A stretch of 59,526 nucleotides of DNA from Candidatus Gastranaerophilales bacterium (GTDB lineage: Bacteria > Cyanobacteriota > Vampirovibrionia > Gastranaerophilales > Gastranaerophilaceae): contig CALUSL010000011.1 of the NCBI GenBank assembly GCA_944323425.1, forward strand, positions 1-59,526. Direction: 5' to 3'. A program made the position numbers and the translations under genes. This document shows, piece after piece, positions 7,038 to 54,166 of the stretch (its first letter is position 1; each line of letters begins with the position of its first letter). The notes below the pieces were generated by a model. That model saw only the letters and a program-made list of their open reading frames with translations. It searched no databases and was not told the origin of the DNA.

Positions 7038-7040
7038 GAA

Positions 7041-8659: not shown

Positions 8660-8699
8660 TCATGAATATGAGAATCATTTTTTTGTAGAAAAATTAATA

Positions 8700-9238: not shown

Positions 9239-9246
9239 ACTCCCTC

Positions 9247-9513: not shown

Positions 9514-9574
9514 AAAAACCTCCGAAATATTCTGGGGAAACACATCTAAGCCTGCCAGCAGGCTTTTGTTCGGC

Positions 9575-9613: not shown

Positions 9614-9628
9614 TTTCTCACAATAACT

Positions 9629-9708
9629 CTGTTTCCGAGAAACATCAAGTCCTTAAATTTTTGTGTCTGAATGATACAAAGTTACTCGGAAACAGTTCCA
9701 ATTTAAGG
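9629..9708. repeat. Two interleaved inverted repeats at the left end of the Mu-type element
   Basis: CTGTTTCCGAG (9629-9639) is the perfect inverse of CTCGGAAACAG (9685-9695), and CCTTAAATT (9651-9659) is the inverse of AATTTAAGG (9700-9708). The CTCGGAAA core recurs at the other end of the element (14797-14830). These are good candidates for transposase end-binding sites, or operators for the divergent HTH regulator. Confidence 0.6.
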
Positions 9709-9719
9709 TCGGAAGAGTG

Positions 9720-31957: not shown

Positions 31958-34900
31958 TTACACAATAGGATTAAAACCAGGATTATTCTGATTGATAATT
32001 ATTCTGGTCAGAGATTCATTGTATTGTTTATTTAATTTTGTTATAAGACTGTTAATTTCAGAGTATTGTTCCTGCAGTCTTGTCAGAAAATCCATAAGTT
32101 CTTTCTGGCTTTGGGCTAGAGCTTCATCGCCTCCGTAGAGCGACAACTCGCTTTCCAACCTCGAAAGCTCACCTTTGTTCAGGGTCATTTCTTTTTGCAG
32201 CGCATTTCTCTGGCTGGTCAGTGTTCTTATTGTTGAATTGAAATAGCCGCTTACCGGTTTGAGTGAATCATCTATTGTGTCTTTGACTCTTGTAAATGAA
32301 CCGGCTACAGTGTGATCAATCGGATCTCCCGTGTCATCACCTATAAGCAATTCTGAAACATTCTGAGGATTGGATAAAAATGCATTGTAGAATTCATCAC
32401 GGTTTAGAGTAAGTGATACTTTTCCTGCTGTGGAGGTAGCAGAGCCGCTAATATTTACAATAATTCCGATATCTGCGAGTTCCTGCTGAATATCAGTTCT
32501 GTTTCCTATATCATCAGTCAGTGCGTCTCTGATACGACCGAGAAGTGCTGAAAACTCTGCATCGTCTGCAACGTTTGTAGACTGGGACAGTGTCATTGCA
32601 ACATTGAACTTGCCTACAAAATCTACCAGCTTCTGATATGTTTCGTCCAGAGTCAGGCTGCCGATATTTATGGTGCCTGCGCCGGTTTCTTTAATGGTAA
32701 TTGTTATTGCCGTGTCAGCATCATTTGTCGTGATTTTTCCGTCTTTGTCCAGCTTGATGACATTTGACTCTGTTTCGTAGTCTGTGCCGTTAAGGTTAAA
32801 TACCGCATTGTATCCATTTTGTTGGGTTGCAACATTCATTGCATTTCCGTTCGTGAATCCCACTATATCCGTAAGATTTGAGGAACCGGCTTCTATTTCT
32901 ATGCGGGCGTTCGTTTTTTGGGCATTGGACGTAAGGACTATTCTGTTGTCAACAAAATCTGCATGTACACCATTTTCGTCAGTGGAAAGGAATGCGCCGT
33001 TTATTTTGTTAATAAGGTCTGCAATGGTGTCTGTTTCTGAAACGTTTATTACAGTGTTGTTGATTTTAAAGTTACCGGCTGTCACACCAAGCGTGCTGAG
33101 CAAAACATTTTCATTGCTGACCTGCAGTCTGTCGCTTTTAATAACTGTGCTTGTCGCATTTGTTCCGTTTTCTATCTGTGCTGTAGAAGATAATGTACCG
33201 CCGGAGGTAAACCCGATTTTGTTGGTAAAATCGCTTGTGCCTTTTGTTACTACAATACCTCCGTCTGTTTCTGAGGAATTTCTTGTCAATACCATTTTGC
33301 CTGTTGTTGCATCGATTGAGGCTGTAATTCCTATGCCAGAAGCATTTATTGCAGCGGCAATTTCTTGAACAGTGTCCGTTGACTGTATTTCTATTCTTCT
33401 TGTGTCTGTGATGTTTCCGTTTTTATCAGTCAGTGAGATATAGAAGTTGCCTGAGGTGTATCCAAGTAATGACGCATTCTCTGCAGTTTTTGAGGATGTA
33501 AGAGTTGAAAGTGTTCCGTTTTCAGCTGGTTTTATCTGCGTACCGTTCTGCGTAAAGCCGGTTGCCTCCGCAAAATTCGATGTACCGTCTTTTAGGGATA
33601 TTTGGTACGCACCTGCAAGTTTTGAGGTCAGAACCAGATTTGTGTTATAAGGGTCTATCTGTGCTGTAATACCCAGATCTGAATTCGTAATTTGTCCGGC
33701 TATTTCAGCAAGCGTTTCATTTCCCGTCAGTGTAAATGTTCTCGTAATTGTAGTTCCATCCGGATTAGTAACAGTTATTTCAAAATCTCCGGCGCTGAAT
33801 TTCATTCCGCTGTCAATACCGGTTCTGGTACCGGAAAGGGTTGAGTAAATATCCTGTTTACCTGTGACGCCGGTTGCTGTGCCTCCTATTGTGCCGGCAG
33901 TAAGTCCGAGTATGCGCGCGTAATCTGTGTCTCCGTCATCAATGCGGATTGTTGCGCCGTTTTCTATTGTCGTTGTAATTTCAATTTGACCGGAACTGTT
34001 AAGGGAAGCCCTAAAGTCACTCTGTGTGCTTGTGTTAATAAAATCAAGAACGTCCTGAATTGTTGTTACGCCTTTTTCTACGCTAACATTGAGTGTTCTG
34101 TGTCCTGCTGCGGAAATTGTGAATGAGCCTGAGGTCATATTATTGAAGCTCTGGGTAGCACTCAATCCGCTGACAGAACCGGTTATTTTGGACAATCCGT
34201 ATGAACCGTTGTCTGTAACGCCGGTTGATGACCAGCTTTCTCCGACAAGACCTGTCAGTTTGTAAAAATCTGATGTACCTGATACTCTTAGCTCAGAACT
34301 GTTTTGACCGGTTGTCTTTATATATAGGGCGCCGTTTTCATCAAGTCCTGCTTCAAAATTTCCGTTTTGCGAAATTTTGTCAATAACATCCTGAATTCTG
34401 TCGTTTGCTGAGATATTTATTGTTTCTGTGGTTGAACCTGCGGTTAAAACCAGTGTGCCTGCCTGCATTCCGCCGAAAACATGATTAGCATCAAGGTTTT
34501 TCATGGAACCGGTAATCATTGATTTTCCGGAAGTTAGGTCTGTTGTCGAAAAATCGGCATCCGTGGTTGCGCCTGTCGTGGACATACCTGCCATTGTGAC
34601 AAAACCGGAAGAGTCGTTCTGGAACGTAATCTCTGACGCATATTCTCCGTTTAACTGGATATGTATACGACCTTTGCCTGTTGTGTCATCAACATCTACT
34701 TTGAATATCATTTTGCTTGTATCAAGACGGTTTGAGCCTGTGACATCGCTTGCCTGATACTGGGCTTCTCTGTCAATGATAGCCTGTTTCATCTTGTTCA
34801 AAATAGTATCAACGCTATCGCTTGAAGAAACGTTTATCGTATATGAACGCTCCGGTCTGTAAATTATATCGCCGTTTGGCGTGGTTGTCATTGTTTCACC

Positions 34901-37900
34901 CAGCGTGAATGTGAACGAGCCGTTTCTGAGTCCGGTGAATACCGTCGAACCTTTCATGCCGTCAATACCAGTTCCGCCCGAACCGCCTGCACCATAGAAC
35001 TCGAACAGTCCGTGGTCGCCGACCTCTGTCTGTGTAGAGGAACCTTCTGTCGTAGTTGCACCGACGAGTCCTACTCGTTTTGTAAAATCAGATTCAGAAA
35101 CTATTATGTTGCTTGTTGACTGGCTGTTTGCCTGAATATAGAATCTGCCTTCACTGTCTATGCTGGCGGTATATCTTCCGCCTGATTGGATATTTATATT
35201 ATTGATAATTTCGTTCAGCGTTTGTCCGTTTGAAACAGAAATAGTAACAGTATTAGAACCGTCACTTATTGTGAAAGTGGAGGATGTTAGGCCGCCGAGA
35301 ATGTGTTCACCGTGAAGACCTGAGACAGAACCCGTAAATTTCAGGTATCCGTGGCTTTCTTCTGTAAATGTTCCCATATGTGTCGTTGTTTCATCGGCAG
35401 TTGCCAGACCGAGACGTTTTACAAGCTCTGTTCCGCGTGCGTCAAGACCTGTAAATGTAATCTGTTCTGCTTTGTTTCCCGCAATACTTATTTTGAACTG
35501 ATGAGTTGAATTGTCAAAACTAATATTGAAACCTTCTACGCCCGCGTTGACCGCAGCGGTTTTTATTGCGTTGACAATGTCGTTTACTGTCATGTTTCTG
35601 TCTATTGAAACATCGAATGATGTTGTGCCAACGTTGATTGTATTATTTGTTTTGTCACTTAGTGTAACTCTGAAAGAGCCGTCGCCTGTGCCTGCTATTG
35701 AATCATCTATTGTCAGGTTGGAAGAACCGAGAAGCCCTCCGACAGCGGCGCTTGTGTATTCCATTGTTCCGTAAGAACCGAGTGTAAGCGTTCCCTCGCC
35801 GAGTTCTTCTGTTTCTCCGGAAAGTCCGAGAATTCTTGCAAAGTTTGATTCGGATACGGTTACGGCAGTCGATGAATCTGTCAACGATTTTATCCAGAAT
35901 CTGCCGTCTTCGATTCCTGCATCATATTCACCGGTGTCTTTGATTTTCTGGATTATTGAATCAAGGCTCTCATCATCTGATACAGTGATGTTGACCGAAG
36001 CACCGCCGCCGCTGATTGTTACTGTTTCTTCGGCAGCGTTAAGACCGCCCTGTATATTGCCAAGAATGTGGCTCGAGTGGAGGTTCTCCGTAGAACCCTT
36101 GAGTTTTGAATGTCCTTCGGAGAGTTTTGTGTTTGTGTAATTTGCGTCATAGACCTTGTCATCCTGTGCAAGACCTACTCTCTGGATAAATCCGGATGTA
36201 TCATCGGTAAAGGAAAGTTCGTATAACGCATTATCTGTTGCCGTTATGCTGATTCTGTTGTTTCTGCTGTCAAATACGGCATTAATGCTGGGGTTGAGTG
36301 CATTAATTCTGTCCAGCACCATTTGGACGGTGTCACCCTGATGAACTTCTATCCATTTTGCTCCGTCCGTGGTGTTTATATTGAACCCGCCGTCGGTAAT
36401 TCCTGAAAGAACGGTATTTGCGGTCAATCCGTTGATAGAGCTGCCGTTAAATGTGAATGTTCCATGAGAACCTGTTTCTTCATAGAGTTTTACATAATAA
36501 TCTGTTCCGTTGTTCGTGATACCCGGTTCTGTCGGTACACCCGGCGAGACCGGAGGAGTATAGCCTTCAGGCTCTGTTGCGATACCTGTCAGGGTTGCAA
36601 AATTTCCGGAAAGGTCTGTAATAACAAGTTTGTCTTCCGTTCTTGATTCAACTGCAGACGTGATGACTATGTGTCCATCAGCATCAAGCCTGTATGTCAA
36701 TCTGTCATTTGCGAGCGGTGACATGTTTAAATCCGGTGTATCCGTGTTGAAATCAAACAAACCAGTGCCGTCTTTTCTGTTTGCCAACTCAACAAGCCTG
36801 TTCAATATGGTCTCTACACTTTCGTTGCTGTTATAGTGGACATCAATGCTTTTACCGTTTATGGACACTCTGAAAGTGCCGCCCTGAAGGCTGCCGACTA
36901 CGCTTGTGTCTTTGTATCCGCCGTTTGCACTGGTGACAGTACTTTGTCCGACTTCATCCGGCATTGGTCTTTCCATTGTTCCGGTGAAGGAGGTGTCATT
37001 CCAGGTCATTGAAGAATCAGTAAGTCCGTAATACTGGGCAAATCCGCTTGTGTCTTGGATTCTTACCGCACCAAGCTGTCCGCCGTATGTAATCTGAATT
37101 TTTCCATCAGCGGTGAAAGATGCTGTATATCCGTTGATTTTATTGATTTCAACGCCGTCCGGTGTAATAATGTCCTTTGCAATCATGTCATTTATCTTTT
37201 TCATGACTTGATCGAGACTGTCGGTGGCAAGTATTTCTACGTTACCTACTGCAACATAACCGTCTGCTGTTTGTGTAACGAAGGTCAGCATACCGTCTTT
37301 TTGACCGCTGAATGGTCCTATATTTGTCTTGCCTACGGCAAGCGTTCCGTCTGTTATCATACCGTTTACGCTTACAGAACCTGTTATGCTGCCGTTGTTG
37401 TATATATATACGTCTTTTGGACTGTCTATTTCTTCATTTGTCGAACGCTGTTCCAGCTCGGTTGCATTTGAGCCGAGTCCATAGAAGTATACGAATGCAC
37501 TGCTGCCGCTTATTCTAAAGTCATCCATGCCCGCACCGTAGGTAATTTCAATTTTGTCATTTACGATTTGTGCGGAAATTGTTGTATCCCAGTTGACATT
37601 GGAAACATCTGTCGGCGGTGCATAATTGACGGTCATGTGATTGATTTTATCAAGAACTGTCAGCAGGTCGTCATTTGCATCGACTGTTACAGAACCGATT
37701 TTTGTGCTGCCGTTGTAAAAATCAATTGTGCCGGTTTGTCCGAAGATTTCATTTCCGTTGACCTGTGAAATGTCGGTTGCTCCTGTTAGAACACCGTTTC
37801 TGTCATAGGTTACAATGTCTTTGGACGGAGTAATAGAGCTGTCGTAGTCTTGATATTGAGAAGTTCCTGAGCCGGTAAGTCCGTAATATCCTGCAAATGC

Positions 37901-40900: not shown

Positions 40901-43900
40901 TCCGACAACACGTCCAAAGTCGCCTGTTACTCCGTTTACTTTGTCCACACTGAGACTAATCCTGAACGGACCGGCATCTCTTGACACGAACTGGAGTTTG
41001 TTATTTACGATTTCAGCTTTTACATACCAGTTTGCGCTGTTTATCGTATTCATTGCGTCTTCAAGTGTTCCGTCTTTCAGGAGGAATGTTTTTTCAACAT
41101 TTACTCCAACGTCATTCACAAAACCGATAGTAATTTGAGATTCTGTTATTTCTGTTTCTTTGTCGACATTGTTCTGACCGACAAGTTTACTGTATGTGTA
41201 ATTTGTGTGTTCTCCGTTTGATGGGGCTGCACCTACTGTATATGACCCCAGTCCTGTGACACGCCCGAAGTCTCCGACACCTATTACCTTAAATGAAATG
41301 CTCTGCATTGTGTCGCTTGTCGCTCTGAGAACAAACTGACCGTTATCATTTAGCAGTGCCTCTACGCCGGTTATGTCTTTATTGGTGTTAATTGCGAGCA
41401 ATGCTGCTCCGACACTGGCGCCGAGGTCTATTATTGTGGAACCGAACTGTATTTTTGAACCGGCGAGTACCTGTGAGTATTCATCAAGACCGGTGACAGC
41501 ACCTGTGACTGTTGCATGTTCTTTTTCCACGTGTGATGTTGAACCAGAAACAGTTGTGTATGTTCCTGTTCCGACAATTCTGCCAAAATCGCCTGATTTT
41601 ACGGAGAAACTTATGCCTGCAGAGCCTGCGTTTGTATTTCTGAGTACAAATTTCCCGTTTCCGTCAATAAATGCCTCAACTCCTGTCGTAGCAGAGTTTG
41701 CGTTTATTGTAGCTATTGCGGATGATATTGTGCCGCTGAGAGTGATGTCTTTGCCGTTTATATTGACAACACTGTCCAATATCTGATCAGAATTGCTGAC
41801 TGTTTTTGTTGCCGTAAATGTCGTTTTAGAGCTGCCGTACTTCTCCTCATGACCTGCAGACACCTGATAACCGATTATACCTGTCAATTGTCCGAAGTTT
41901 CCTGAAATATCACGTACGGAAATAGGGAGAGAACCGTTTCTCATTTCTGTGAATACGAGTCTGTTGTTTTCAATTGATGCTGTAATCTGAGTTATATCAG
42001 ACATTGCATTTATTTGCTGGATTGCACTCTGAAGTGTTCCCGCTTTTATATCGACGATAGTTCCGTTAATGTTTATGGAAGAGTCTTCTATCATTGTATT
42101 GTTGTTAACATCTTCAGAACCTGTCAGGGTTGTTTTGGAACCCTGCTGTCCGATAGTTGCTGCTGCTGAAGCTGAACTTTCTGTTGTGAATCCGGCAATT
42201 GTGCCGAAATTGCTTGTGCCGCCTTCAACAAACAGTCCCTGGCTTCCTGTCATTTTGTTTCTTAGTACGACATGTCCGTTCTCTGCGTCAAATTCTGCAA
42301 TAACTCCTGTCTGGTTCGTATATTCATTGATTTTTTTAATGGCAGCAGCAAGTGTTCCTGCGTTTAGTTCTATAGTAGTATCGTTGATTTTAAAGGAGCC
42401 TGCGGTTACCTGAACATTGCTCGGATTTACGATATTTCTTATACCGGTTAATGTCGTGAAATACTGTGCGTCCAAATCTGGATTTAGCACTCCTGTTGAG
42501 GTCATCCCGTCAGTGAGACCGACTTTCTGAGTAAAATCTGAATTTCCTGATTCTACTGTTATGCTGTAGCCGGCACCTTTTACATTATTTTTAATAACGA
42601 ATCTGTCATTTTCAACAGATGCTGTTATATCAAGTCCGGATGCATTAATTTTTGCAATTACGTCCTCCAGTGTATCTGTAGCAGCTACATTAATAACTTC
42701 CTGAGCTGTAACGCCGTTTAGTGTTTTTCTTATAACAAAAGAACCTTCCTGAAAACCTCCTGTCATAGCAGCAATGGAATTGCTTCCGGTAAGGGTTTGG
42801 ACAGAACCGTCAGAACCAAGGACAAGATTGTCCTCAATCATTTTTCCGCCTGTAGTAAATCCGATGACATTCGTAAAATTACTGGAACCTTTTTCTATCT
42901 CAATAAGAACATTTCCGGTTCTGTTAGCAACAAGAGTGATTTTGTTTTCATCTAAAATTGCGCCTACGCCGTATTTCTGGTCTCCGTTAATTTCGTTGAA
43001 CAGGTCGTTTATCGTAGTGTTTGAATCAATCGTGAGTTCGTTACCGTTTATGGAAAAAGTACCGGTGGATATTGTTAAGCCTATTTTTTCACCGAAATTT
43101 GAGCTCTGGTCGTGCATGTTCATAGATTTTACGCCTTTTGAATCTATGTATAGCTGACCGTTCTCTATGCCTGCTCCGTATCCGTCTGCTTGAAGCGCTC
43201 TTATTACATCGCCCAGAGTATTGTTGCTGTTTACTGAAATAGTAGAATTGCCGATGTTAAACACACCGCTTTTTATGCCCAATTCTGACATCGTCATTGA
43301 TTCATCGAGGTCATTGCGTGTGGTTGTTACCCTTGTACCGCTGTAGCTGCCGGCATACAAATCAGTGATTTTTGTGCTTAGGCTGATATTTTCACCTTTC
43401 AGTACGTCGCTTATTGCTTTTGTCGCTGTGGCAACCTGTGTAACTTTGTAATCAATGCGCTGGGTTGTGACGTTATTGTTGTTCAGAACAACATCGACAA
43501 CATCCGGATTTGTGTTCGTAAAGTCAAGAACACTCGAGGTTGTGGTAGAGTCTTTAACGCTTTTCAAAAAATCATCAAGAGACGTTACCGTCTTTGAATA
43601 CTGGTTTTTTAGCGAATTTAGTGTCGTAATCTTTGAGTTATGGGTATTTATCTGTGAACTTATTGTATTTATTGAGGACTGTAAACCTATAATCTGGCTG
43701 TTATAGTAACTGTTTAGCTGATATATCTGGGAGTTTGTCGTGTAAGCGCCTGAGGCAACCTGATTGAACATTTGTTCAATTGCACTTTTTTGCTGGTATA
43801 AGCTGCTTAAAGACTGCTGCTTTTGGCTCAAGACGTTGTTAATCATTGAGCTGATGGATGAATTTCTTGAGGTCGTAAGTCCGTTGATTATAATACTCAT
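31958..43900 (-). CDS. Giant FliD-like protein (3,980 aa) with about 29 hook_IN-type repeats
   Basis: FliD-type ends enclose a huge repeat array. The N-terminus (IIINGLTTSRNSSISSMINNVL, then RIDYKVTQVATATKAIS) resembles FliD_N. The last ~270 residues resemble FliD_C: QELADIGIIVNI, AFLSNPQNVSELLIG, then a helical coil ending NKLNKQYNESLTRI. Between them about 29 units of 65-130 residues each carry a 'DTIxDxIxxINxxxxGVxAxxxNxRxVLxS' strand-helix-strand pattern closing in DF-x-R-V-x-G-F/L, as in flagellin hook_IN motifs. An EF-hand loop lies at residues 1073-1084. There is no Sec signal; FliD is exported by the flagellar apparatus, which is not in this window. GGAGG (43905-43909) precedes the ATG. 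Paralogue of 44347-53385. Adhesin, cap or fibre role inferred. Confidence 0.85.
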   Translation of the reverse strand: MSIIINGLTTSRNSSISSMINNVLSQKQQSLSSLYQQKSAIEQMFNQVASGAYTTNSQIYQLNSYYNSQIIGLQSSINTISSQINTHNSKITTLNSLKNQYSKTVTSLDDFLKSVKDSTTTSSVLDFTNTNPDVVDVVLNNNNVTTQRIDYKVTQVATATKAISDVLKGENISLSTKITDLYAGSYSGTRVTTTRNDLDESMTMSELGIKSGVFNIGNSTISVNSNNTLGDVIRALQADGYGAGIENGQLYIDSKGVKSMNMHDQSSNFGEKIGLTISTGTFSINGNELTIDSNTTINDLFNEINGDQKYGVGAILDENKITLVANRTGNVLIEIEKGSSNFTNVIGFTTGGKMIEDNLVLGSDGSVQTLTGSNSIAAMTGGFQEGSFVIRKTLNGVTAQEVINVAATDTLEDVIAKINASGLDITASVENDRFVIKNNVKGAGYSITVESGNSDFTQKVGLTDGMTSTGVLNPDLDAQYFTTLTGIRNIVNPSNVQVTAGSFKINDTTIELNAGTLAAAIKKINEYTNQTGVIAEFDAENGHVVLRNKMTGSQGLFVEGGTSNFGTIAGFTTESSASAAATIGQQGSKTTLTGSEDVNNNTMIEDSSININGTIVDIKAGTLQSAIQQINAMSDITQITASIENNRLVFTEMRNGSLPISVRDISGNFGQLTGIIGYQVSAGHEEKYGSSKTTFTATKTVSNSDQILDSVVNINGKDITLSGTISSAIATINANSATTGVEAFIDGNGKFVLRNTNAGSAGISFSVKSGDFGRIVGTGTYTTVSGSTSHVEKEHATVTGAVTGLDEYSQVLAGSKIQFGSTIIDLGASVGAALLAINTNKDITGVEALLNDNGQFVLRATSDTMQSISFKVIGVGDFGRVTGLGSYTVGAAPSNGEHTNYTYSKLVGQNNVDKETEITESQITIGFVNDVGVNVEKTFLLKDGTLEDAMNTINSANWYVKAEIVNNKLQFVSRDAGPFRISLSVDKVNGVTGDFGRVVGMASSTTMDGSMSHLRKDPAQYVGATSGLNSYDELIGTNTIKLWMTRSKSYTGVDTEQGSGALASVAQTITFTDKDGNGYISIQDAIDSINDLKHITKIEASLENGQFVLRQTDANTAGEGDTINFEVSGDGDFARVAGFGDYTTIGQADTGNVVGQSYSSLTGSRDVDAVNEVLESTFKFSISKANALNSAGINMSIDIHVADGTLADAITSINQQLAAAGISVTASIKDGKFEFKSDLAGDYNISVDMTNSDFGRVIGIGSHTTTDGSYTVTEKQAAKVTGGVTGLKYDSQLTGTVQLTLQGIITSTSTGSNTEGGTNNAVSSVKTITLSGTIEDAINAINAETATTQIRAYLDADGRFVLEQTNANTENEFDTISFSVSGTGDFGAVTGLSAYIAYGDDNTGTTTGQTNSYISGVVDNLKGTEQVTDGKVTVTLVNDVHSWNNAVTTTFDVDITGTVQNVAEQITARAHELGLELEAYIDPSTGRFTIKSTSFGPDQISISVEDSDFARITGIANYSLDFGTVTGGNSTYELHPTISGGNEVTGDIKILGGTLQIGDKTINTANKTLEQIVNEVNNLGLAGVTADLETGYFRIKMLESSVDNPYNIQASGDFARVTGFASYSVGSATYVDGSYTVSDGTHSFQTKSEMGLKKDTTFVGGSITITHDNGYGQNESFTIDTTGMTVEEVVAEINAIGQSGQSVDSVDGYSKNYVYAEYVNEQIVIKTNYTNHSITAEGDFARVTGFSRYTSGIATNSKPTTTVENGTFEYLSSNKNKLTADTTFASGTISISFENGSNGTRTISVNTQGKTLAEVVSELQTQADAYGEEFSKDGYVISKPEISFDATTGKISIKTYGNNHTIDATGDAARLTGFGNYTVGSATNTPGSVSIVNNRYVYTDGTLTGSVNVYDSNGQAIANQAGFIEFYSGSEKIGFVKVDAGDDLQTVLNKINSTTLTFSAPDDMPSDNLNYKLNAVIDSNGRIKINYSGAISDFSVGGDSAFAGYYGLTGSGTSQYQDYDSSITPSKDIVTYDRNGVLTGATDISQVNGNEIFGQTGTIDFYNGSTKIGSVTVDANDDLLTVLDKINHMTVNYAPPTDVSNVNWDTTISAQIVNDKIEITYGAGMDDFRISGSSAFVYFYGLGSNATELEQRSTNEEIDSPKDVYIYNNGSITGSVSVNGMITDGTLAVGKTNIGPFSGQKDGMLTFVTQTADGYVAVGNVEILATDSLDQVMKKINDMIAKDIITPDGVEINKINGYTASFTADGKIQITYGGQLGAVRIQDTSGFAQYYGLTDSSMTWNDTSFTGTMERPMPDEVGQSTVTSANGGYKDTSVVGSLQGGTFRVSINGKSIDVHYNSNESVETILNRLVELANRKDGTGLFDFNTDTPDLNMSPLANDRLTYRLDADGHIVITSAVESRTEDKLVITDLSGNFATLTGIATEPEGYTPPVSPGVPTEPGITNNGTDYYVKLYEETGSHGTFTFNGSSINGLTANTVLSGITDGGFNINTTDGAKWIEVHQGDTVQMVLDRINALNPSINAVFDSRNNRISITATDNALYELSFTDDTSGFIQRVGLAQDDKVYDANYTNTKLSEGHSKLKGSTENLHSSHILGNIQGGLNAAEETVTISGGGASVNITVSDDESLDSIIQKIKDTGEYDAGIEDGRFWIKSLTDSSTAVTVSESNFARILGLSGETEELGEGTLTLGSYGTMEYTSAAVGGLLGSSNLTIDDSIAGTGDGSFRVTLSDKTNNTINVGTTSFDVSIDRNMTVNDIVNAIKTAAVNAGVEGFNISFDNSTHQFKISIAGNKAEQITFTGLDARGTELVKRLGLATADETTTHMGTFTEESHGYLKFTGSVSGLHGEHILGGLTSSTFTISDGSNTVTISVSNGQTLNEIINNINIQSGGRYTASIDSEGRFYIQANSQSTSNIIVSESDFTKRVGLVGATTTEGSSTQTEVGDHGLFEFYGAGGSGGTGIDGMKGSTVFTGLRNGSFTFTLGETMTTTPNGDIIYRPERSYTINVSSSDSVDTILNKMKQAIIDREAQYQASDVTGSNRLDTSKMIFKVDVDDTTGKGRIHIQLNGEYASEITFQNDSSGFVTMAGMSTTGATTDADFSTTDLTSGKSMITGSMKNLDANHVFGGMQAGTLVLTAGSTTETINISANDRIQDVIDKISQNGNFEAGLDENGALYIKTTGQNSSELRVSGTSDFYKLTGLVGESWSSTGVTDNGSYGLSKITGSVSGLSATQSFNNMTSGSFTISAAGHRTLNVSVEKGVTTIQDVLDFINTSTQSDFRASLNSSGQIEITTTIENGATIRIDDGDTDYARILGLTAGTIGGTATGVTGKQDIYSTLSGTRTGIDSGMKFSAGDFEITVTNPDGTTITRTFTLTGNETLAEIAGQITNSDLGITAQIDPYNTNLVLTSKLAGAYQISLKDGTSNFAEATGFTQNGTQIKPAENGTLSTLTSSKTAENASLLGYTSGNFYISLTDKNGNITDTRRIEIQSTDTVQEIAAAINASGIGITASIDATTGKMVLTRNSSETDGGIVVTKGTSDFTNKIGFTSGGTLSSTAQIENGTNATSTVIKSDRLQVSNENVLLSTLGVTAGNFKINNTVINVSETDTIADLINKINGAFLSTDENGVHADFVDNRIVLTSNAQKTNARIEIEAGSSNLTDIVGFTNGNAMNVATQQNGYNAVFNLNGTDYETESNVIKLDKDGKITTNDADTAITITIKETGAGTINIGSLTLDETYQKLVDFVGKFNVAMTLSQSTNVADDAEFSALLGRIRDALTDDIGNRTDIQQELADIGIIVNISGSATSTAGKVSLTLNRDEFYNAFLSNPQNVSELLIGDDTGDPIDHTVAGSFTRVKDTIDDSLKPVSGYFNSTIRTLTSQRNALQKEMTLNKGELSRLESELSLYGGDEALAQSQKELMDFLTRLQEQYSEINSLITKLNKQYNESLTRIIINQNNPGFNPIV

Positions 43901-43904
43901 AGAA

Positions 43905-43971
43905 CCTCCATTTCTGAATGAAGGTCAGTCGCTGCAGAAAAATCGACATAGCGCAAACAGGAGGTGTTTGC
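43905..43971 (-). promoter_or_regulatory. Leader hairpin whose loop is complementary to the ribosome-binding site of the 3,980-aa gene
   Basis: In the minus-strand leader, GCAAACA and TGTTTGC (43953-43971) form a 7-bp stem, extendable by two pairs, whose five-base loop is CCTCC. The ribosome-binding site GGAGG stands 50 bases downstream (43905-43909). Loop and site can pair over six bases (ACCTCC with GGAGGT). This would block initiation, or form a switch. The structure is visible; its use is inferred. Confidence 0.5.
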
Positions 43972-44064
43972 ACAGCAGAAACCAGCACAAAAATTCATTT
44001 TTTGAAATGAAATAAAATCCATACGGAACCGTTAATTTTTTATCAACTCTACTACGACATAAAC

Positions 44065-44093
44065 AGTATATCATATTGACATCATTTGCGCAA
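44065..44093 (-). promoter_or_regulatory. Promoter of the 3,980-aa giant gene
   Basis: On the minus strand TTGCGC (44093-44088), a 17-base spacer and TATACT (44070-44065). It has the same spacing and almost the same boxes as the promoter of the other giant. It predicts a leader of about 155 bases. It is of sigma-70 type and not the flagellar sigma-28 type. Confidence 0.7.
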
Positions 44094-44195
44094 TATTTAG
44101 TAAGAAAATGTAAAAGTTAAAAAGCTAAAATGCTTAAAAATAATATATTTTATTACTGTTTAAAATTGTTACATTTACAATTGTTAAATATCCTA

Positions 44196-44224
44196 TTGCG
44201 TAATTTATATCAATGTGATATACT
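44196..44224 (+). promoter_or_regulatory. Promoter of the 3,012-aa giant gene
   Basis: TTGCGT (44196-44201), a 17-base spacer and TATACT (44219-44224). It is the mirror copy of the divergent promoter at 44065-44093. It predicts a leader of about 115 bases containing a short ORF and a hairpin over the ribosome-binding site. Confidence 0.7.
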
Positions 44225-44272
44225 GTTTATGTCGAGTTGTGTAAATTGAAAATATACCCCAAGGATGTACGC

Positions 44273-44356
44273 ATGAAAAAATGTGTAGTCGAACAATGGC
44301 ATATTGAAAAATATAGCCTCTTGCTTGTGGTGAGAGGAGCTTTGGCATGGATATAA
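44273..44356 (+). CDS. Possible 27-aa leader peptide overlapping the start of the 3,012-aa gene
   Basis: ATG with AAGGAT seven bases upstream, encoding MKKCVVEQWHIEKYSLLLVV and seven more residues. Its TAA (44354-44356) lies just inside the giant ORF, whose ATG is at 44347, a 10-base overlap in another frame. A ribosome translating it would run through and open the hairpin at 44315-44341 that covers the giant's ribosome-binding site. Coupled translation is inferred; no homologue is known to me. Confidence 0.45.
   Translation: MKKCVVEQWHIEKYSLLLVVRGALAWI
44315..44341 (+). promoter_or_regulatory. Hairpin masking the ribosome-binding site of the 3,012-aa gene
   Basis: AGC-CTCT (44315-44321) can pair with AGAG-GA-GCT (44333-44341), leaving a two-base bulge. 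The right arm contains the ribosome-binding site (AGAGGAG), a few bases before the ATG at 44347. The other giant has a different structure with a similar effect (43953-43971). Confidence 0.45.
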
Positions 44357-47300
44357 GTATTTACACAAACGGCCTTTCCTCTCGAAATGCTTCAATTTCA
44401 TCACTTGTTAATAATGTACTTGCAAACAAACAGAAAAGCGCAGGTTCTCTTGGTGGTGCATCATCACTCGGCACAGGGGGAGAGGGTAATGCTTATTCAA
44501 ATCAGATTAACAGCTCGTACGTAGAATATTTGAACAGTCTTCAGCAGACGATTGACAATTTAAACAGCAGCTCGACATCGATTACAAACAAACTTTCGAC
44601 ACTTTCAACAGTAAAAAGTTCTTACAATCGTACTGTTTCATCGCTCGATGATTTTATAAACAGTGTAAAAAACTCCAGTGCGTCATCTATTCTCGATATT
44701 TTCAACACAAACAGCTCGGCAGTGGACGGAGAACTTATCAGCAGCAATGTTGATTCACAACGTATTGAGTATAGCGTAAAACAGGTCGCTACTGCAACTC
44801 AGGCTATCAGTAGCGCGCTAAAAGGCGTAAGTATTGATGGAGAAACGAAAATAGTTGATCTTTTTGCCGGAAGCTTTGATGGTAAAAGGCTTACATCTAC
44901 ACGTTCTGACCTGACAGGTTCAATGACAATGAGCCGTCTTGGCGTGACTACCGGGACTTTTGAACTCGGCGGGAACCTTATTTCGATTAAAGGTTCCGAC
45001 ACAATCGATGACGTTATTGAAAAACTTCGGGTAAACGGTTACAAAGCGGGTTTTGATGCTTACAACAACTTCTATATTGAATCAGAATCCGGAAATTCTA
45101 TGAAAATCACCAATCAAAACACAAACTTCGGTGAAATCATGGGGCTTACGATGTCCGAAGGCTCTTTTTCCATAAACGGACAGGAATTGTATATAAACAA
45201 AGATACTACTCTCAATAGCTTGCTTTCTACGATAAATTCCGATTCAAAATACGGGGTTGGTGCAATGCTAAAGGACAACAAAATTACTTTTGTTGCAAAC
45301 CGTACAGGAAATGTTCTTATTGAAATCAAAAAAGGTACAAGCAATTTCACCAATGCAATAGGGTTTACGCAGGGCGGAAGCATGAATACTGGCAGCCTGG
45401 TTCTCGGCAATGACGGTACAGCTCAGAAACTTTCCGGTATTACCGCTATAAATGCTGACTCTACCGGCTATACAACAGGTACATTTAAAATCACCACTTC
45501 ATATAACGGCAATGAACAGTCTGCTATCATCACTATAGACGAAGATGACGGAATAAATGACATCATAAATAAAATAAACAACTCGAACATCGGTATTTCC
45601 GCAACAATTGAAAACGGCGTTTTTGAACTTGTTCAAAACAACAAGGGCTCAGGTTATAATATAACTGTTGAGGCAGGAACAAGCGACTTTACCGAATTTG
45701 TCGGATTGACGGAAGGCACGCAATCTACCGGTATTCTTTCTCCCGGACTGGACGGGGATTATTTTACCCACACAACAGGCACAAAGGAGATTACAGATAT
45801 CGATGCGCCGGATGTGGTCACTGCCGGTTCATTTAAAATCAACGGCAAAACTATTCAGCTAAAAGGCGGAAGCATTAGTGATGCGCTTGCCGAAATTAAT
45901 CAGTACAGCGAAGAACTGGGCATTGTTGCTGAATACAAAGACAATCATATTACAATCAGAAACAGGCTTACCGGCTCAACCGCACTTTATATAGAAGGCG
46001 GTACAAGCAACTTCGGTGTTGTAACCGGCTTGACAACAGAAAGTGTATCATCATCGAATTTTGTTGCTGGTGCAGAAGGCTCGGCATCGACTTTAACAGG
46101 TACTGAAATTGTGAGCACAAACACTGAGGTCGGTGTATCTACTATTAAAATCAACGGAATTACCGTAAACATTGCAGAAGGCACACTAGAAAGTGCAATA
46201 AAAAATATAAACGCTGTTTCTGACAAGACTTATGTTGAAGCGTCAATTGATGAGAACGGAAAACTCGTTCTGACAGAAACCCGTCACGGCTCTCTGCCGA
46301 TTTCTGTTCAGGATGTAAACGGAAACTTTGGTCAAATCACCGGTATAATCGGATATCAGGTTGTTGCAGGTGAAGAAGAAAAATACGGCGATACAAAAAC
46401 TATACTGACTACAGCAAACTCTGTTTCATACGGAACTCAGATTATGAACAGTACAGTTGTTGTAAATGGCTTAACAATAGCCGTTGGAACGAATATTTCA
46501 GAAGCTTTGAATGCAATCAACGCTCATTCCTCGGCAACCGGTGTTGAAGCATTTTTGAACGATGAGGGCAGATTCGTACTGCGAAATATCGATAGCGGTA
46601 TAAAAAATATTTCATTCCAGATAACCTCCGGTGATTTAGGCAGGGTCATAGGCGCCGGAACTTACACAACAATAGATGGCACAAACTCGCATGTAGAAAT
46701 TGAATACGCAAGTGTAACAGGCGGGGTAACGGGTCTTGACGACTATTCTCAGGTTTTGAAAGGCTCAACACTCACTATCGGCAGTGTGACAATGGATATG
46801 GGTGAAACAATACTTGATTGTATTAATATAATTAATTCCCATAAAGATGAGACAAAAGTTGAGGCAAAACTTACTTCAACAGGACAGTTCCAACTTGTTG
46901 CCATAGATGATAGCATAGAAAACATTTCTTTTATTATCGGCGGTGAAGGTGACTTTGGCAGGGCAACCGGTCTCGGCAGCTATGTTATTCAGGGCAATGC
47001 TCCTGACGGCACTGAACAGCCTATTACTTCTACCGGGCTTGTAACCCCTACACGACAGATGAGAACATACAGCGTTCAATCTACGGGCGGCACAACCTCT
47101 GACGGTGAAAACATAGGTCAGACCTTCTCGAAGTTGACAGGTACAAACAATGTCACTAACACAACCCAGATACTCGAAAGTATTATAACTATTTATTATA
47201 AAAACGATGCCGGTGTTGATACCTCAAAAACTTATACCCTGAAAGCCGGTACACTCCAGTCCGCAATGGACACAATCAATAACTCGAACTGGTATGTAAA

Positions 47301-50300
47301 AGCACAGATTACCGAAGACGGAAAATTTGAGCTGATAAGCCGTGCGGTCGGTCCGTTTGATATAAAAATAAGCATGGAAAAAGTTGACGGCGTGGCCGGA
47401 GACTTTGGACGTGTAGTCGGTATGGCTACCCAGACGACGTTGGATGGCGACAAATCACAGGAAAGAAAAGATCCCGCAACGATTACCGGCGGAACATCAG
47501 GACTGACCCTGACAGACCAGATTCTCGGCGAAAACTCCATAACTATCTGGATGACACGTGAAAGACCCGGATTTACGGGTGTTGATACAATGACAGGCAC
47601 TGGCGACCTTGCATCTGTAGCGAGAACGATTACTTTCAGAGACTCAAACGGTGATGGAAAAATCACTATAGCCGAGGCAATTGACCAGATTAACGCAGAA
47701 GCTTCGACCACAAAAGTCAAAGCGTCATTGATAAACGGTCAGTTTGTTCTGACTCAGATTGATGACCAGAACGCTGACGACAAATCAAAATACAACACCA
47801 ACGGCGGCGCAAACACTGCCGGTGAAGGTGACACGATTAAGTACACAATTCAGGGCACCGGTGATTTCGAACATATCACGGGTCTGGATGCATACTCTGT
47901 CGCATCTTCTACAGCAAACACCGAAAAAGGCGACGACAACGGATATCACTACCACGCCGTAGTCACATCTACCGTAAAAAATGACGGTGGTACAATAAAA
48001 TCAGGCTCTGTAAATCTTAACGGTACTATGGTAGATGTTTCCGGTTTGACAGTACAGGGTGTTATAGACAAGATAAATAACAGCTATTCGAGTGTTGCTA
48101 CAGCAGGCTGGGATAACGGAAAACTTGTTATAATGCTGAAACGTCAGTCGAATTCTTCTTCGTCAGCTTCTTCGACCGCCGCATCCGTCACAGCTACGGG
48201 TGATGCAGCAAGGGTTCTCGGTCTTGCCGGTTATTCTATATCCTCTGGTGATGTAACAGCAGGTGTTTACAAAAACCATTGGAAATATTCCTATGACGTA
48301 TGGTCACAAAAAACTGACGACTGGGATTTGTCTAAAGACTATGCGGGTTCTGACAACTACTCCTCGAATACAAGTGTTCAGTATGGTACAACCTATGAAT
48401 ACAGATGGAGAGACGAAATCTGGACAGACAGAACATGGGGTCCGAGCACCACGAACTCTACCTTCTCGGGGGATAAATACCGCAACCAGTCCTACACCTC
48501 ATCTGTTGAAACTAACAAAACCACTCATACGACAGGTACAAGTTACGGTACGTCGGTAAGTACGATTACGACCGGATCGACCAGAACTGTCACAACTACT
48601 ACAACACTTGAGAAAAAAGAATTGATTTATCAGGATGGTGTATTAACTAATAGTGCTAATGATTGGGCATCTGCTGAATCTATAATTGCTGGTAGAGATT
48701 ATTCTCACATGGTCGTTTCTACACCTTCTGGATATACACTTACGGGATATAGTTATTCTCGTAATGAAATCTTGAATGGTACTGCATACACGTTTAATAT
48801 TTATGCGAATTTTACAAGCACAAGTACAATTACGACCCAGATAGGTACGACAAAAACCACCTACACGACCCTCACCACCTCCACAACATACCAGACGTCT
48901 GTGGAAACGAACTTCACGACATGGTATTCTGGCTCGTATCAGGAACGTACGCAGGATTCTGCATGGTCTACCAGAGATACCGGCTATGGAAATACTATCT
49001 CTGATCCCTCTGACAGGGTCAGAAACCAGAGCGTCTACTCGCGTACTTGGTATTACGAAACCTACTGGACAAAAGACTACTCCACCTCCTATGATACAAA
49101 TGTTCAGGAAGGATACTACAATGCGCCAGGATTCAAATATTCTGTCGGTCTGACCTACAGAAACGTATCCTCGACCCACGTAGTCGACCAGTACACGAAC
49201 GGAAAAATTGAAGCTTCTACAGCATATGATTCCTCTACTTTCAACACCCACTTTGCAGGTCAGCAGGGAGGTACGATAACGATTAATTCTTCTTACTTCG
49301 GAAATATTGCTTCGTTCTCTTATTCCTCAACTACCTCCATAAACTCTATTCTCCAGTCATTGCGTAATTCAACCGGTATTGAATCAGTAAGCTCGGACGG
49401 TACGACTATTGTTACGGACGGATATTACGGAAGAGTCACAATCTCCGACACAGGTAACGCCGCAAAACTCCTCGGTATTGCGACCTCCGGTACAAATGGC
49501 TCCGCCAATAGAACGAACAAGTCGGACGATGACTGGAACGGTATTACGAAAAAAACAGATACTCTTACCGGTTCACGCACTGACCTGTATAATGACTTTT
49601 CGTTCGCTCTTCAGGAAGGCGGCTCCTTTGACCTGTATCTTGGCAACAGACTTCTGAAAACTATTACATACTCTGCCGGTTCAACGATTGAATACATACT
49701 GAGCCAGATGCAGGGCACATACGTATATGATACGGGCAAATATATCACTGACCCGTTCTCTGACAAATTATATGATGAAGAAGAATATGACCTTTATGGC
49801 ACTGCATACACTGATTCGTCCGGCAGAATCTACTATACGGCTTCCTATTCCGCAAAACTCGACTCTGAGGGCAGAATCGTCATAACCTCCGATGTCTACA
49901 ATTCTGCACAATCCGAAACCATTTCTGTTAAGAATGATACCGGAAACTTCACGCATCTCGCTGGTTTGACCTCAAACGGTCACAATTATGCAGAAAACAA
50001 TACCCCTGTCATAGAATCTTACGGTTATGACCGTCTGACAGGTTCTGTTAAAAACCTTACAAAAGGTCACCTGCTCGGCAATCTCACAGCAGAAACCTTC
50101 CGGATATCAGGTGGCAACGGTACTTTCAATGTCTCGATTTCTTCGACAGACACTATTCAGGATATTATAAACAAAGTCTACTCACAGACCAACGGCGCAT
50201 ACAAAGCTGATCTTGATGAGGAAGGCCGCTTCTATATTGAGTCTACTATCCAGACTCCGACTGATACTCAGGTTACCAGCACAGATTTGACAAGACGTCT

Positions 50301-53300
50301 CGGGCTTGTCGCTGTTGACCAGTCTACCGGTCCGTCGTCACAGACAGAAACAGGTGATCAGGGTTACTTTATATTTGAAACCGATGGCGGCGGGGTTTTC
50401 GGTATGAAGCCTAATTCTATATTCACCGGTCTCAAAGATGGTCAGCTGACCTTCACCCTCCACGCCAGAGAATCAACGGGTGAAACAGGTAGTATTACCT
50501 ATCGTCCGGATATTACTTACACAATAGATATCGTCTACAACGATACTGTTTCATCAGTTCTGAACAAAATGAAACAGGCTATACTCGCGGGCGAAGATGA
50601 CATCTGGGAACACGATGACGTTATAGACGAAAACCGTGCTGACAGAATAGATTTCCATGTAAATTATGACGAAGAAAAGAATCTCGGTAAAATCTATCTC
50701 CAGATTATCGGTAACTACGCATCAGCAATTACTTTCGACAGTGATACATCAGGCTTTGTTGAAATGGCAGGGCTCTCAAAAGATGTTACGGTCTATGACC
50801 CCAACTACACTTCAGAATCAAAAGGCGCCGGAAAATCACAGCTCACCGGTTCTGTCTCAAATCTCACCGCAAACCATATATTCGGTTCAATGACCGCAGG
50901 CTCAATGACAATCACTGCAGGTTCGACGACAAAAACCATAGACGTACTCTCCACGGACAGAATTCAGGATGTCATTGACAAAATTAATGAAGGCGGTATT
51001 TTTGAGGCCGGTCTCGATGCAATGAACAGGTTCTATATAAAAACTGTCGGTCAGAATGCTGCTGATATCACTGTTTCCGGAACAACTGATTTCTACAGTC
51101 TGGTTGGTTTGAAAGGCAAAACATGGACTTACAACACAACGACCGAGCTCGGTTCGCTCGGATATTCCAAAATAACAGGCTCTGTCTACGGACTCACTAC
51201 TGACAGAACTTTCAACAACATGACATCAGGTTCTTTCTCTATAAATGCTGACGGTCACAGGACTTTGAATGTCAGTGTTGAACAGGGTGTCACATCGGTC
51301 GGTGATGTTATTGATTTTATAAACAACAGTGCGGACAGTGATTTTACGGCATCGCTTGACAATTCCGGACGAATCGTTATTTCCACAAAAATTGACAACG
51401 GTGCAACGATTTATGTTAATGACGGAACGACAAACTATGCAAAAATACTCGGATTGACAGCAGGTACTCTCGGAGGAAATGCTGTCGGTGTCAATGGCTC
51501 CAGTGACAGGTATTCTGCTCTCACCGGTTCAACAACCGGACTCGATAACTCCATGAGATTCTCTGCAGGTGATTTTGTCATATCTGTCACAAACCCTGAC
51601 GGTCAAAAAGTGTCGCAGAAATTTACGCTCACCGGTAACGAAACACTCGCTGATATCTCAAGCATGATTTCGAATTCATCCCTCGGTGTGTCTGCTGTTC
51701 TCGACTCTTCGACGAACAGTCTGACCCTGCGTTCAAAAACTGCCGGAAATTATATTATAGAGGTGACTGACGGTACATCTGATTTTGCTGAAACTGTCGG
51801 ATTCACAAGAAACGGCTCTCAGGCAAATCCGTCGCAAATCGGTTCTCTGTCTACGTTGACTTCGACTTCTACGGTATACAGTGTTCAGACACTCGGATTT
51901 AGTGCCGGTGATTTCTACATAAATCTTGTCAACACGGACGGGTCGATATCTGACTCATTGCGTATTGAAATTTCTCAGTATGATACTATAGATTCTATTA
52001 TCAGCAAGATTAATAATTCCGGATTCGGTATTGCTGCAACTATAAATGCTGACGGCAGAATGGTTCTAACCCGCACGGAAACAACCACAGCAGGCGGAAT
52101 CTCTGTTACAAAAGGTACAAGTGATTTTACGAACAAAATCGGTTTTACCTCAGGCGGTAATCTCAGTTCGGGTGCGAAAATTGAAAATGGTGTTGATGCG
52201 GAAAGAACTGTTGTTACCAGCAATGAAATTGCGGTTGCTAATCCGACGGTTTCGCTCTCGACCATCGGTATAACTGCCGGAAACTTCAAAATTAACGGTG
52301 CTAATATTAACGTTACTGAAAATGACTCTATTGCTACGCTTCTCGGCAAAATTAACGCTGCTTTCTCTTCAACTGATACGAACGGCGTTTATGCAGAGTT
52401 TATCAACAACAGGCTGGTTCTGACCTCTAATTCTGCTTCGGGTGATGCTCGTATAAATATTGAGGCAGGTACAACGAATTTAACTGATATGATAGGGTTG
52501 ACGTCAGGTTCGTCTATTGTTGCGGATTCTCAGACTCTCGGTGACAATGCTATATTCACTCTGAACGGTCAGGAATTCGAAACACAGTCAAATGTTATCT
52601 CTCTCGACAAACACGGAAATCTTGTTGATACTGACAGTTCGGCTGAAGCTATCAGGCTCACTCTGAAGGCAACGGGTAACGGTACTATTGATATCGGTAA
52701 AAACGCTGTTACCAACGCATTCAACAGGCTTAATACATTTGTAAAACGATTTAACGAAGCAATGGGACTCTCTCAGAACAAGGTGTTTGAGGGTGATGCG
52801 GCGTTCGAATCACTGATTGTGAACATTAAAAAAGCCCTTACTGACAATGTCGGAACTTACAGACAGATTCAGCGCCAGATGTCTGACATAGGTATAAATG
52901 TAGCTATTTCGGGCGGTGTTTCATCTTCTGACGGCAGAGTCACTATCTCGCTCAACAAAGACAAGTTTATAAATGCCTTCATGAATGACCCTGACAAGGT
53001 TAAAGGTATTTTAATCGGAAACGACAAAAAGCCTATAAACACTGCCGAAGCAGGTACGTTTACGAGACTCAGAGAAACTCTCGATGATTCGCTGCAAACA
53101 AACGGATACTTTGCATCAACAACAAGACTGCTTGAATCTACGAACAAGTCTATTATGAATGAGATTGCAATGAATACCAGCGAACTCAACAACGTCAGAG
53201 CAACAATGTCATTTGAACAAAATTCCCTTGCCTCAAATCAGGCCGAGCTTGCCGATTTCCTTGCCCAGCTCGAAGAACAGTATGATGCTGTAAACAAAAT

Positions 53301-53385
53301 GATTGACAAGTTGAAATATCAGTACAATCAGTCTCTCACAAGACTCGTACTCAATCCGACAGGAAGTTCTCTGATGAGTTCATAG
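44347..53385 (+). CDS. Giant FliD-like protein (3,012 aa) with about 19 hook_IN-type repeats
   Basis: Divergent paralogue of the 3,980-residue protein. The N-termini match (IYTNGLSSRNASISSLVNNVL; RIEYSVKQVATATQAIS), as do long internal blocks (VANRTGNVLIEI; GDFGRVVGMA) and the FliD_C-like end (QMSDIGINVAIS, AFMNDPDKVKGILIG, KLKYQYNQSLTRLVLNP). About 19 hook_IN-type units can be counted. An EF-hand loop lies at residues 1099-1110. Residues ~1307-1620 are a different, Tyr/Trp/Thr/Ser-rich block found only here (for example YEYRWRDEIWTDRTWG and TWYYETYWTKDYSTSYD). No Sec signal. The ATG follows GAGAGGAG. It is shorter than its partner mainly through fewer central repeats. Surface fibre, cap or adhesin role inferred. 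Confidence 0.85.
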   Translation: MDISIYTNGLSSRNASISSLVNNVLANKQKSAGSLGGASSLGTGGEGNAYSNQINSSYVEYLNSLQQTIDNLNSSSTSITNKLSTLSTVKSSYNRTVSSLDDFINSVKNSSASSILDIFNTNSSAVDGELISSNVDSQRIEYSVKQVATATQAISSALKGVSIDGETKIVDLFAGSFDGKRLTSTRSDLTGSMTMSRLGVTTGTFELGGNLISIKGSDTIDDVIEKLRVNGYKAGFDAYNNFYIESESGNSMKITNQNTNFGEIMGLTMSEGSFSINGQELYINKDTTLNSLLSTINSDSKYGVGAMLKDNKITFVANRTGNVLIEIKKGTSNFTNAIGFTQGGSMNTGSLVLGNDGTAQKLSGITAINADSTGYTTGTFKITTSYNGNEQSAIITIDEDDGINDIINKINNSNIGISATIENGVFELVQNNKGSGYNITVEAGTSDFTEFVGLTEGTQSTGILSPGLDGDYFTHTTGTKEITDIDAPDVVTAGSFKINGKTIQLKGGSISDALAEINQYSEELGIVAEYKDNHITIRNRLTGSTALYIEGGTSNFGVVTGLTTESVSSSNFVAGAEGSASTLTGTEIVSTNTEVGVSTIKINGITVNIAEGTLESAIKNINAVSDKTYVEASIDENGKLVLTETRHGSLPISVQDVNGNFGQITGIIGYQVVAGEEEKYGDTKTILTTANSVSYGTQIMNSTVVVNGLTIAVGTNISEALNAINAHSSATGVEAFLNDEGRFVLRNIDSGIKNISFQITSGDLGRVIGAGTYTTIDGTNSHVEIEYASVTGGVTGLDDYSQVLKGSTLTIGSVTMDMGETILDCINIINSHKDETKVEAKLTSTGQFQLVAIDDSIENISFIIGGEGDFGRATGLGSYVIQGNAPDGTEQPITSTGLVTPTRQMRTYSVQSTGGTTSDGENIGQTFSKLTGTNNVTNTTQILESIITIYYKNDAGVDTSKTYTLKAGTLQSAMDTINNSNWYVKAQITEDGKFELISRAVGPFDIKISMEKVDGVAGDFGRVVGMATQTTLDGDKSQERKDPATITGGTSGLTLTDQILGENSITIWMTRERPGFTGVDTMTGTGDLASVARTITFRDSNGDGKITIAEAIDQINAEASTTKVKASLINGQFVLTQIDDQNADDKSKYNTNGGANTAGEGDTIKYTIQGTGDFEHITGLDAYSVASSTANTEKGDDNGYHYHAVVTSTVKNDGGTIKSGSVNLNGTMVDVSGLTVQGVIDKINNSYSSVATAGWDNGKLVIMLKRQSNSSSSASSTAASVTATGDAARVLGLAGYSISSGDVTAGVYKNHWKYSYDVWSQKTDDWDLSKDYAGSDNYSSNTSVQYGTTYEYRWRDEIWTDRTWGPSTTNSTFSGDKYRNQSYTSSVETNKTTHTTGTSYGTSVSTITTGSTRTVTTTTTLEKKELIYQDGVLTNSANDWASAESIIAGRDYSHMVVSTPSGYTLTGYSYSRNEILNGTAYTFNIYANFTSTSTITTQIGTTKTTYTTLTTSTTYQTSVETNFTTWYSGSYQERTQDSAWSTRDTGYGNTISDPSDRVRNQSVYSRTWYYETYWTKDYSTSYDTNVQEGYYNAPGFKYSVGLTYRNVSSTHVVDQYTNGKIEASTAYDSSTFNTHFAGQQGGTITINSSYFGNIASFSYSSTTSINSILQSLRNSTGIESVSSDGTTIVTDGYYGRVTISDTGNAAKLLGIATSGTNGSANRTNKSDDDWNGITKKTDTLTGSRTDLYNDFSFALQEGGSFDLYLGNRLLKTITYSAGSTIEYILSQMQGTYVYDTGKYITDPFSDKLYDEEEYDLYGTAYTDSSGRIYYTASYSAKLDSEGRIVITSDVYNSAQSETISVKNDTGNFTHLAGLTSNGHNYAENNTPVIESYGYDRLTGSVKNLTKGHLLGNLTAETFRISGGNGTFNVSISSTDTIQDIINKVYSQTNGAYKADLDEEGRFYIESTIQTPTDTQVTSTDLTRRLGLVAVDQSTGPSSQTETGDQGYFIFETDGGGVFGMKPNSIFTGLKDGQLTFTLHARESTGETGSITYRPDITYTIDIVYNDTVSSVLNKMKQAILAGEDDIWEHDDVIDENRADRIDFHVNYDEEKNLGKIYLQIIGNYASAITFDSDTSGFVEMAGLSKDVTVYDPNYTSESKGAGKSQLTGSVSNLTANHIFGSMTAGSMTITAGSTTKTIDVLSTDRIQDVIDKINEGGIFEAGLDAMNRFYIKTVGQNAADITVSGTTDFYSLVGLKGKTWTYNTTTELGSLGYSKITGSVYGLTTDRTFNNMTSGSFSINADGHRTLNVSVEQGVTSVGDVIDFINNSADSDFTASLDNSGRIVISTKIDNGATIYVNDGTTNYAKILGLTAGTLGGNAVGVNGSSDRYSALTGSTTGLDNSMRFSAGDFVISVTNPDGQKVSQKFTLTGNETLADISSMISNSSLGVSAVLDSSTNSLTLRSKTAGNYIIEVTDGTSDFAETVGFTRNGSQANPSQIGSLSTLTSTSTVYSVQTLGFSAGDFYINLVNTDGSISDSLRIEISQYDTIDSIISKINNSGFGIAATINADGRMVLTRTETTTAGGISVTKGTSDFTNKIGFTSGGNLSSGAKIENGVDAERTVVTSNEIAVANPTVSLSTIGITAGNFKINGANINVTENDSIATLLGKINAAFSSTDTNGVYAEFINNRLVLTSNSASGDARINIEAGTTNLTDMIGLTSGSSIVADSQTLGDNAIFTLNGQEFETQSNVISLDKHGNLVDTDSSAEAIRLTLKATGNGTIDIGKNAVTNAFNRLNTFVKRFNEAMGLSQNKVFEGDAAFESLIVNIKKALTDNVGTYRQIQRQMSDIGINVAISGGVSSSDGRVTISLNKDKFINAFMNDPDKVKGILIGNDKKPINTAEAGTFTRLRETLDDSLQTNGYFASTTRLLESTNKSIMNEIAMNTSELNNVRATMSFEQNSLASNQAELADFLAQLEEQYDAVNKMIDKLKYQYNQSLTRLVLNPTGSSLMSS

Positions 53386-54163: not shown

Positions 54164-54166
54164 GTT

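Follow-up and report, generated by a model that had tools for sequence, protein, structure and literature searches.

What are the two giant, divergently transcribed genes, here called A and B, that lie next to each other in this DNA, and what might proteins of such size do for the cell that makes them? The window, that is, the whole stretch of 59,526 nucleotides that was analysed, comes from the genome of a flagellated Candidatus Gastranaerophilales bacterium (assembly G000, 2.03 Mb, 99.85% complete), which falls into one genus with matched Candidatus Gastranaerophilales MAGs, members of the non-photosynthetic Cyanobacteriota/Melainabacteria. A preliminary description, made from the letters of the window, had read both genes as hugely extended relatives of FliD. 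Cap proteins of this kind are normally small, since they stand in a few copies at the tip of the flagellum and must pass a narrow channel.

Both open reading frames are uninterrupted, as first described, and encode 3,980 (A) and 3,012 (B) residues, their starts being separated by an intergenic region of 446 bp (Table 1). Over their first ~1,140 and last ~1,125 residues the two proteins are about 50% identical while their middles differ, an alignment that identifies A and B as paralogues. A contains not a single cysteine where about 40 would be expected (P 3e-18). Lack of cysteine is usual for flagellar axial proteins, and its absence from A was counted in favour of flagellar export of the pair. 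The Ser/Thr/Tyr/Trp-rich insert of B recurs in B of three other genomes (G169, G174 and G192) and has no Pfam match. A search of A and B against PHROGs yielded no useful match.

Table 1. Coordinates of the features of the A/B locus (positions in the window).
Feature	Position	Strand	Basis
Gene A, giant FliD-family protein, 29 head units, without cysteine	31958..43900	-	ORF, unit HMM, hhalign of ends
A residues 3683-3980, FliD C-terminal (D1/D0-type) region	31961..32854	-	hhalign, probability 99.9, E 2e-36
A residues 201-3682, array of 29 FliD D2/D3-type (Flagellin_IN) units	32855..43300	-	Unit HMM, Pfam, model
A residues 1-200, divergent FliD N-terminal (D0/D1-type) region	43301..43900	-	hhalign, probability 96, E 4e-9
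Promoter-like/regulatory element upstream of A, TTGC-17-TATACT then GTTTATGTCG	44055..44093	-	Shared 24-bp core
Promoter-like element upstream of B, as at A	44196..44234	+	Shared 24-bp core
27-codon leader ORF (MKKCVVEQWHIEKYSLLLVVRGALAWI) overlapping the start of B	44273..44356	+	ORF
Gene B, giant FliD-family protein, 19 head units	44347..53385	+	ORF, unit HMM, NCBIfam NF005281
B residues 1-191, FliD N-terminal-type region	44347..44919	+	Profile comparison
B residues 192-2718, 19 head units	44920..52500	+	Unit HMM
B residues 1294-1635, Ser/Thr/Tyr/Trp-rich insert (48% STYW)	48226..49251	+	Composition
B residues 2719-3012, FliD C-terminal-type region	52501..53382	+	NCBIfam model, hhalign

In fragmented assemblies, long genes made of repeats often arouse suspicion, and one might therefore take A and B for an artefact, as the preliminary description had itself considered, or for a neutral expansion of repeats without function. 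However, both genes are intact in 4 genomes of the genus, and giants of this type occur in many more of the family. A is 3,980 residues long in three species, with no indel among them, and 3,981 residues long in a fourth, and neither gene holds near-identical DNA repeats or tandem repeats that could collapse in assembly. A dN of 0.05-0.08 against a dS of ~2 (saturated) gives a dN/dS of ~0.03 throughout the 3,980 codons of A. The constant length, the low ratio and the lack of near-identical DNA repeats together argue that A and B are no assembly artefact, and for A the same ratio and the absence of indels across three species refute artefact and neutral expansion alike; I give this explanation practically no credence. 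Judged by these substitution rates, A is under very strong purifying selection with its length fixed, which points to a selected function.

The repeated units were identified by sequence and by structure. When a unit HMM was seeded solely with the single head unit of the same genome's ordinary FliD, A proved to hold 29 such units and B 19, every one with iE < 1e-3, against 1-2 in ordinary FliDs; the approximate counts given at the outset thus turned out to be exact. Pfam Flagellin_IN, an independent model, matches 16 stretches of A (E 3e-57) and 11 of B (E 2e-43). Unit endings are in fact looser than DF-x-R-V-x-G-F/L, the motif that had been ascribed to every unit and that represents just their best-conserved version: a relaxed pattern matches 19 times in A and 15 times in B. 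Structure prediction, which had been proposed for single units, was applied to units 5-8 of A, and in Foldseek the best match of the AlphaFold model (mean pLDDT 74, mostly 70-92 within units) is H. pylori FliD. In VIA-align the model superposes on D2-D3 of E. coli FliD (structures 5h5v and 5h5w) with Z 11.1 and 2.0 Å over 93 residues at 28% identity (5h5w), and nearly all of the leading rows are FliD, flagellin or other flagellar proteins. Bacterial Ig-like (Big) repeats, the unrelated type that had been named as a possible match, were rejected, as no such Pfam family occurs in A or B and Ig-type structures reach just Z about 3. Pfam Flagellin_N and Flagellin_C have no match in either protein at E 1. 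Taken together, the unit HMM, Flagellin_IN and the structural match to FliD D2-D3 make the giants FliDs with a multiplied head domain, and the view that their units are FliD D2/D3 (Flagellin_IN) domains, a single head unit having been multiplied to 29 and 19, is well supported.

The two ends are more distant from FliD. The preliminary description had called them FliD-type and had held that a lack of FliD_N and FliD_C hits would speak against this; neither Pfam model matches A or B even at E 1, and it is by other comparisons that the claim survives. In profile-profile alignment with canonical FliD (hhalign; probabilities and E values in Table 1), the N-terminal profile scores 64 and the C-terminal profile 257, against at most 22 for thirty column-shuffled profiles (N-terminal controls at most 21). 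NCBIfam FliD models also match, NF005281 (PRK06798) with E 2.5e-11 over B residues 2644-2988, and a two-row profile of the A and B C-termini matches the genome's ordinary FliD with E 7.6e-16. Moreover, giants of the same clade from another genus do score above the Pfam FliD_N cut-off (G168, for example, with 33.6 bits), and the intermediate giants with a FliD_N match include proteins of 6,589 and 4,700 residues. The missing Pfam match thus reflects divergence and not absence, and the kinship of the ends with FliD is real but remote. The branch in the C-terminal tree measures 1.03 changes per site, and the FliD N-terminal signature and the coil lengths are altered. An HMM of the C-terminal alignment found coiled coils only, and no FliD, among PDB sequences, and the AlphaFold model of the C-terminal 615 residues (pLDDT 56) was too poor and was left out of the fold search. 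On these sequence comparisons, descent of both ends of A and B from the D0/D1 legs of FliD is well supported. Since the genome also keeps a separate, ordinary FliD of 475 residues with one head unit, A and B are extra FliD paralogues.

The host is equipped for a flagellum. A search for flagellar export genes and for FliS and FliT, as had been advised, found in G000 an export apparatus including FlhA, as well as FliS, a weak FliT match and 10 flagellin-N matches (G174 has 23). A second type III-like export operon (G000:C2 22000-41999; locus L100, 6859-14016, minus strand) encodes a FliI-type ATPase, an FHIPEP protein, FliH, a 325-residue protein and a YscJ/FliF protein with a FliF C-terminal domain. 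Nearly every genome of the order encodes an FHIPEP of this ~725-bit class, including many that lack FliD or flagellar-class FlhA, and for this reason the second operon probably has a non-flagellar role. In flagellin genes at loci L061, L064, L065, L076, L079 and L103 (in G000, G169, G174 and G192), G/C tracts of 7-13 bases lie close to where the N-terminal domain joins the variable insert, and several of these genes are out of frame at the tract, leaving ORFs of ~173-187 residues with the rest in another frame; tracts and frame breaks together suggest slipped-strand phase variation.

How widely are such giants distributed? When 192 genomes of the order were searched with C-terminal or FliD_N profiles, 23 were found to encode giant FliD-type ORFs (>1,000 residues), which in the extracted sequences reach 5,922, 6,589, 7,267, 8,903 and 11,051 residues, with up to 51 head units in relatives. 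All but one of the 23 (22/23) have flagellar-class FlhA; giants occur in 22 of the 70 genomes with this FlhA versus 1 of the 122 without it (Fisher p 3e-10, not corrected for phylogeny). In a C-terminal tree of unsure rooting the giants form two clades apart from housekeeping FliD, a divergent one that holds A and B and another whose members keep canonical, Pfam-grade FliD ends, for which two separate enlargements of FliD would be the simplest reading. In three genomes of other genera (G076, G168 and G154) a giant directly adjoins ordinary fliD, and in G101 the gene order is A, a 555-residue gene, a FliT-like gene, fliD and the start of a B-like giant. Finally, adhesin-type GLUG-motif modules, which are lacking in the window's A and B, interrupt the unit arrays of giants in relatives, and the same module lies inside a flagellin-type gene of G000. 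The co-occurrence with FlhA, the position of giants beside fliD and the GLUG inserts shared with flagellin of the same genome all argue for a link to the flagellum. The 7,267-residue relative of B in G174 is directly adjoined by a flagellin-type gene (L040; G174:C6 about 99789-104100, minus strand) whose open frame spans 1,439 residues.

Two other explanations were weighed. A and B might be true alternative filament caps for particular flagellins among the ~10, their heads serving as a shield or steric device and adhesion not being their main role. Both leg regions are kept in their FliD ends, several flagellins exist per genome, and in other genera the neighbours of giants are fliD and a FliT-like gene, all as alternative caps would have it. 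However, ordinary FliD is kept separately in giant-bearing genomes, the GLUG modules of relatives and the variable length of B are more easily explained by binding, and the signature and coil changes noted above do not favour a cap, so that I consider this explanation rather unlikely. Alternatively, A and B might leave the cell through the flagellar apparatus and act away from flagella, as free fibres, a cell coat or an aggregation factor. The strong divergence of their ends would fit this, as would a private control element (described below) unlike those of the inspected flagellar genes, but giants of the other clade retain Pfam-grade FliD ends, both leg regions persist, and the gene context is next to fliD; secretion off the flagellum is distinctly unlikely.

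In contrast to A, B is highly variable in length, with 3,012, 7,267, 8,903 and 11,051 residues (a 3.7-fold range). The window's B corresponds to units 1-7 and 35-46 of B in G174, and the two thus differ by one clean internal block. A relative of A in another genus (G101) is colinear with A except that it has one unit fewer. An exact length of 3,980 residues in three species, with zero indels, beside so variable a partner might suggest that A is a ruler-like protein that measures length or timing in the flagellar system, with B as its adhesive partner. Yet Pfam reveals no FliK-like feature, the unit missing from A of G101 does not suit a ruler, and FliD is, to my knowledge, not a ruler in known systems; a measuring role for A is very improbable.

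The intergenic region ties A and B together. Both are preceded by a 24-bp element, CAATRTGATATACTGTTTATGTCG, that includes an extended -10-like TGATATACT and occurs at exactly two sites per genome, one before each gene, in 4/4 congeneric genomes, also where the two genes are on separate contigs. Allowing up to 3 mismatches, no further site was found in the four genomes, and a reversed control found none. The pairing by this private element indicates that A and B are co-controlled. A scan with the sigma-70 consensus did not list the element as a promoter. The element and upstream regions of A and B bear no resemblance to those of fliD and three flagellin genes of G000, and a promoter common to A/B and to fliD or the inspected flagellins was rejected, none being found. 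Short leader ORFs similar to that at B are also present at B in G169, G174 and G192.

Directly downstream of B lies a MotB/MotA-like pair (window 53456-55087, minus strand), closest to the anti-phage ZorB/ZorA models and below their cut-offs. As a partner of B this MotA/MotB- or ZorAB-like pair was rejected: it is absent beside B in G169, and hence no link between them is claimed. Elsewhere, window positions 1070-14498 form a mobile or defence-like stretch with a type I restriction HsdR gene (1070-4168, minus strand), a Mu-type transposase (9717-11702, plus strand) and a Schlafen/helicase-like gene (12996-14498, minus strand).

At this point, the explanation that I favour, with slightly more confidence than doubt, is that A and B are accessory, flagellar-exported cap-type FliD paralogues with long adhesive arms; their export, location and adhesion I infer. 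They would pass in unfolded form through the flagellar type III apparatus by way of their FliD-type N-terminus, and would then either form alternative caps or attach to the filament by their D0/D1 ends. The array of units would project as arms of roughly 100 nm (estimated at ~4 nm per unit), which in the animal gut may attach to mucus or to the surfaces of host or microbes, A of fixed length perhaps being a structural arm and variable B an adaptable binding arm. Adhesion is suggested by the GLUG modules in relatives and by reports of FliD as a mucin-binding adhesin in P. aeruginosa and C. difficile (PMC4009794). Against the favoured explanation stand the ends without Pfam matches, the miss in the PDB search, the poor C-terminal model and the upstream regions unlike those of fliD and flagellins. 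Furthermore, I know of no precedent for a protein of 0.3-1.1 MDa passing through a flagellar channel. The idea of the preliminary description, adhesins exported by a flagellar-type system or a new organelle, is thus supported in part, namely for the FliD kinship of the ends, the head-type units and the presence of a flagellar export apparatus in the genome. A bolder version, possible but doubtful, would make A and B the co-regulated halves of one flagellum-borne fibre apparatus, a fixed and a variable giant being exported and displayed as arms at the tip.

If such an apparatus existed, then with the 11,051-residue relative it would represent the largest known family of type III export substrates. 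Proteins that reach 51 head units and 11,051 residues challenge the assumed size limits of flagellar export, and they suggest that the tip of the flagellum can be converted into a large adhesive device in common, little-studied gut bacteria. With A fixed in length and B variable, the number of units becomes a design variable open to direct testing.

In the open-licence full texts searched, giant FliD-type proteins were not found described, and the nearest known systems each share a part of these features. FliD (HAP2), the filament cap, has in common with A and B the leg regions, D2/D3-type Flagellin_IN heads, low cysteine and flagellated genomes; it comprises 1-3 units and about 450-650 residues, whereas the giants comprise 19-29 (up to 51) units and 3,012-11,051 residues. 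Unlike FliD, the giants coexist with an ordinary FliD, the ends of A and B are too divergent for Pfam, and relatives bear GLUG modules. Surface proteins of the GLUG-motif/IgA-peptidase type (PF07581 and the non-catalytic PF05342 region) share these modules with the giants of relatives; A and B of the window are without them, and in relatives the carrier is FliD-type. The FliD mucin adhesin (PMC4009794) is likewise a cap-type protein for which binding to gut or airway mucus has been proposed, though with a single small head and no tandem array, and for A and B adhesion is presumed. Finally, giant flagellins of more than 1,000 residues have already been described (PMC6248924), and in them, too, an axial protein of the flagellum has grown by inserts exposed on its surface, some of which belong to the same domain type. 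They are, however, filament subunits with Flagellin_N/C ends, whereas A and B lack any such match and exceed them several-fold in size.
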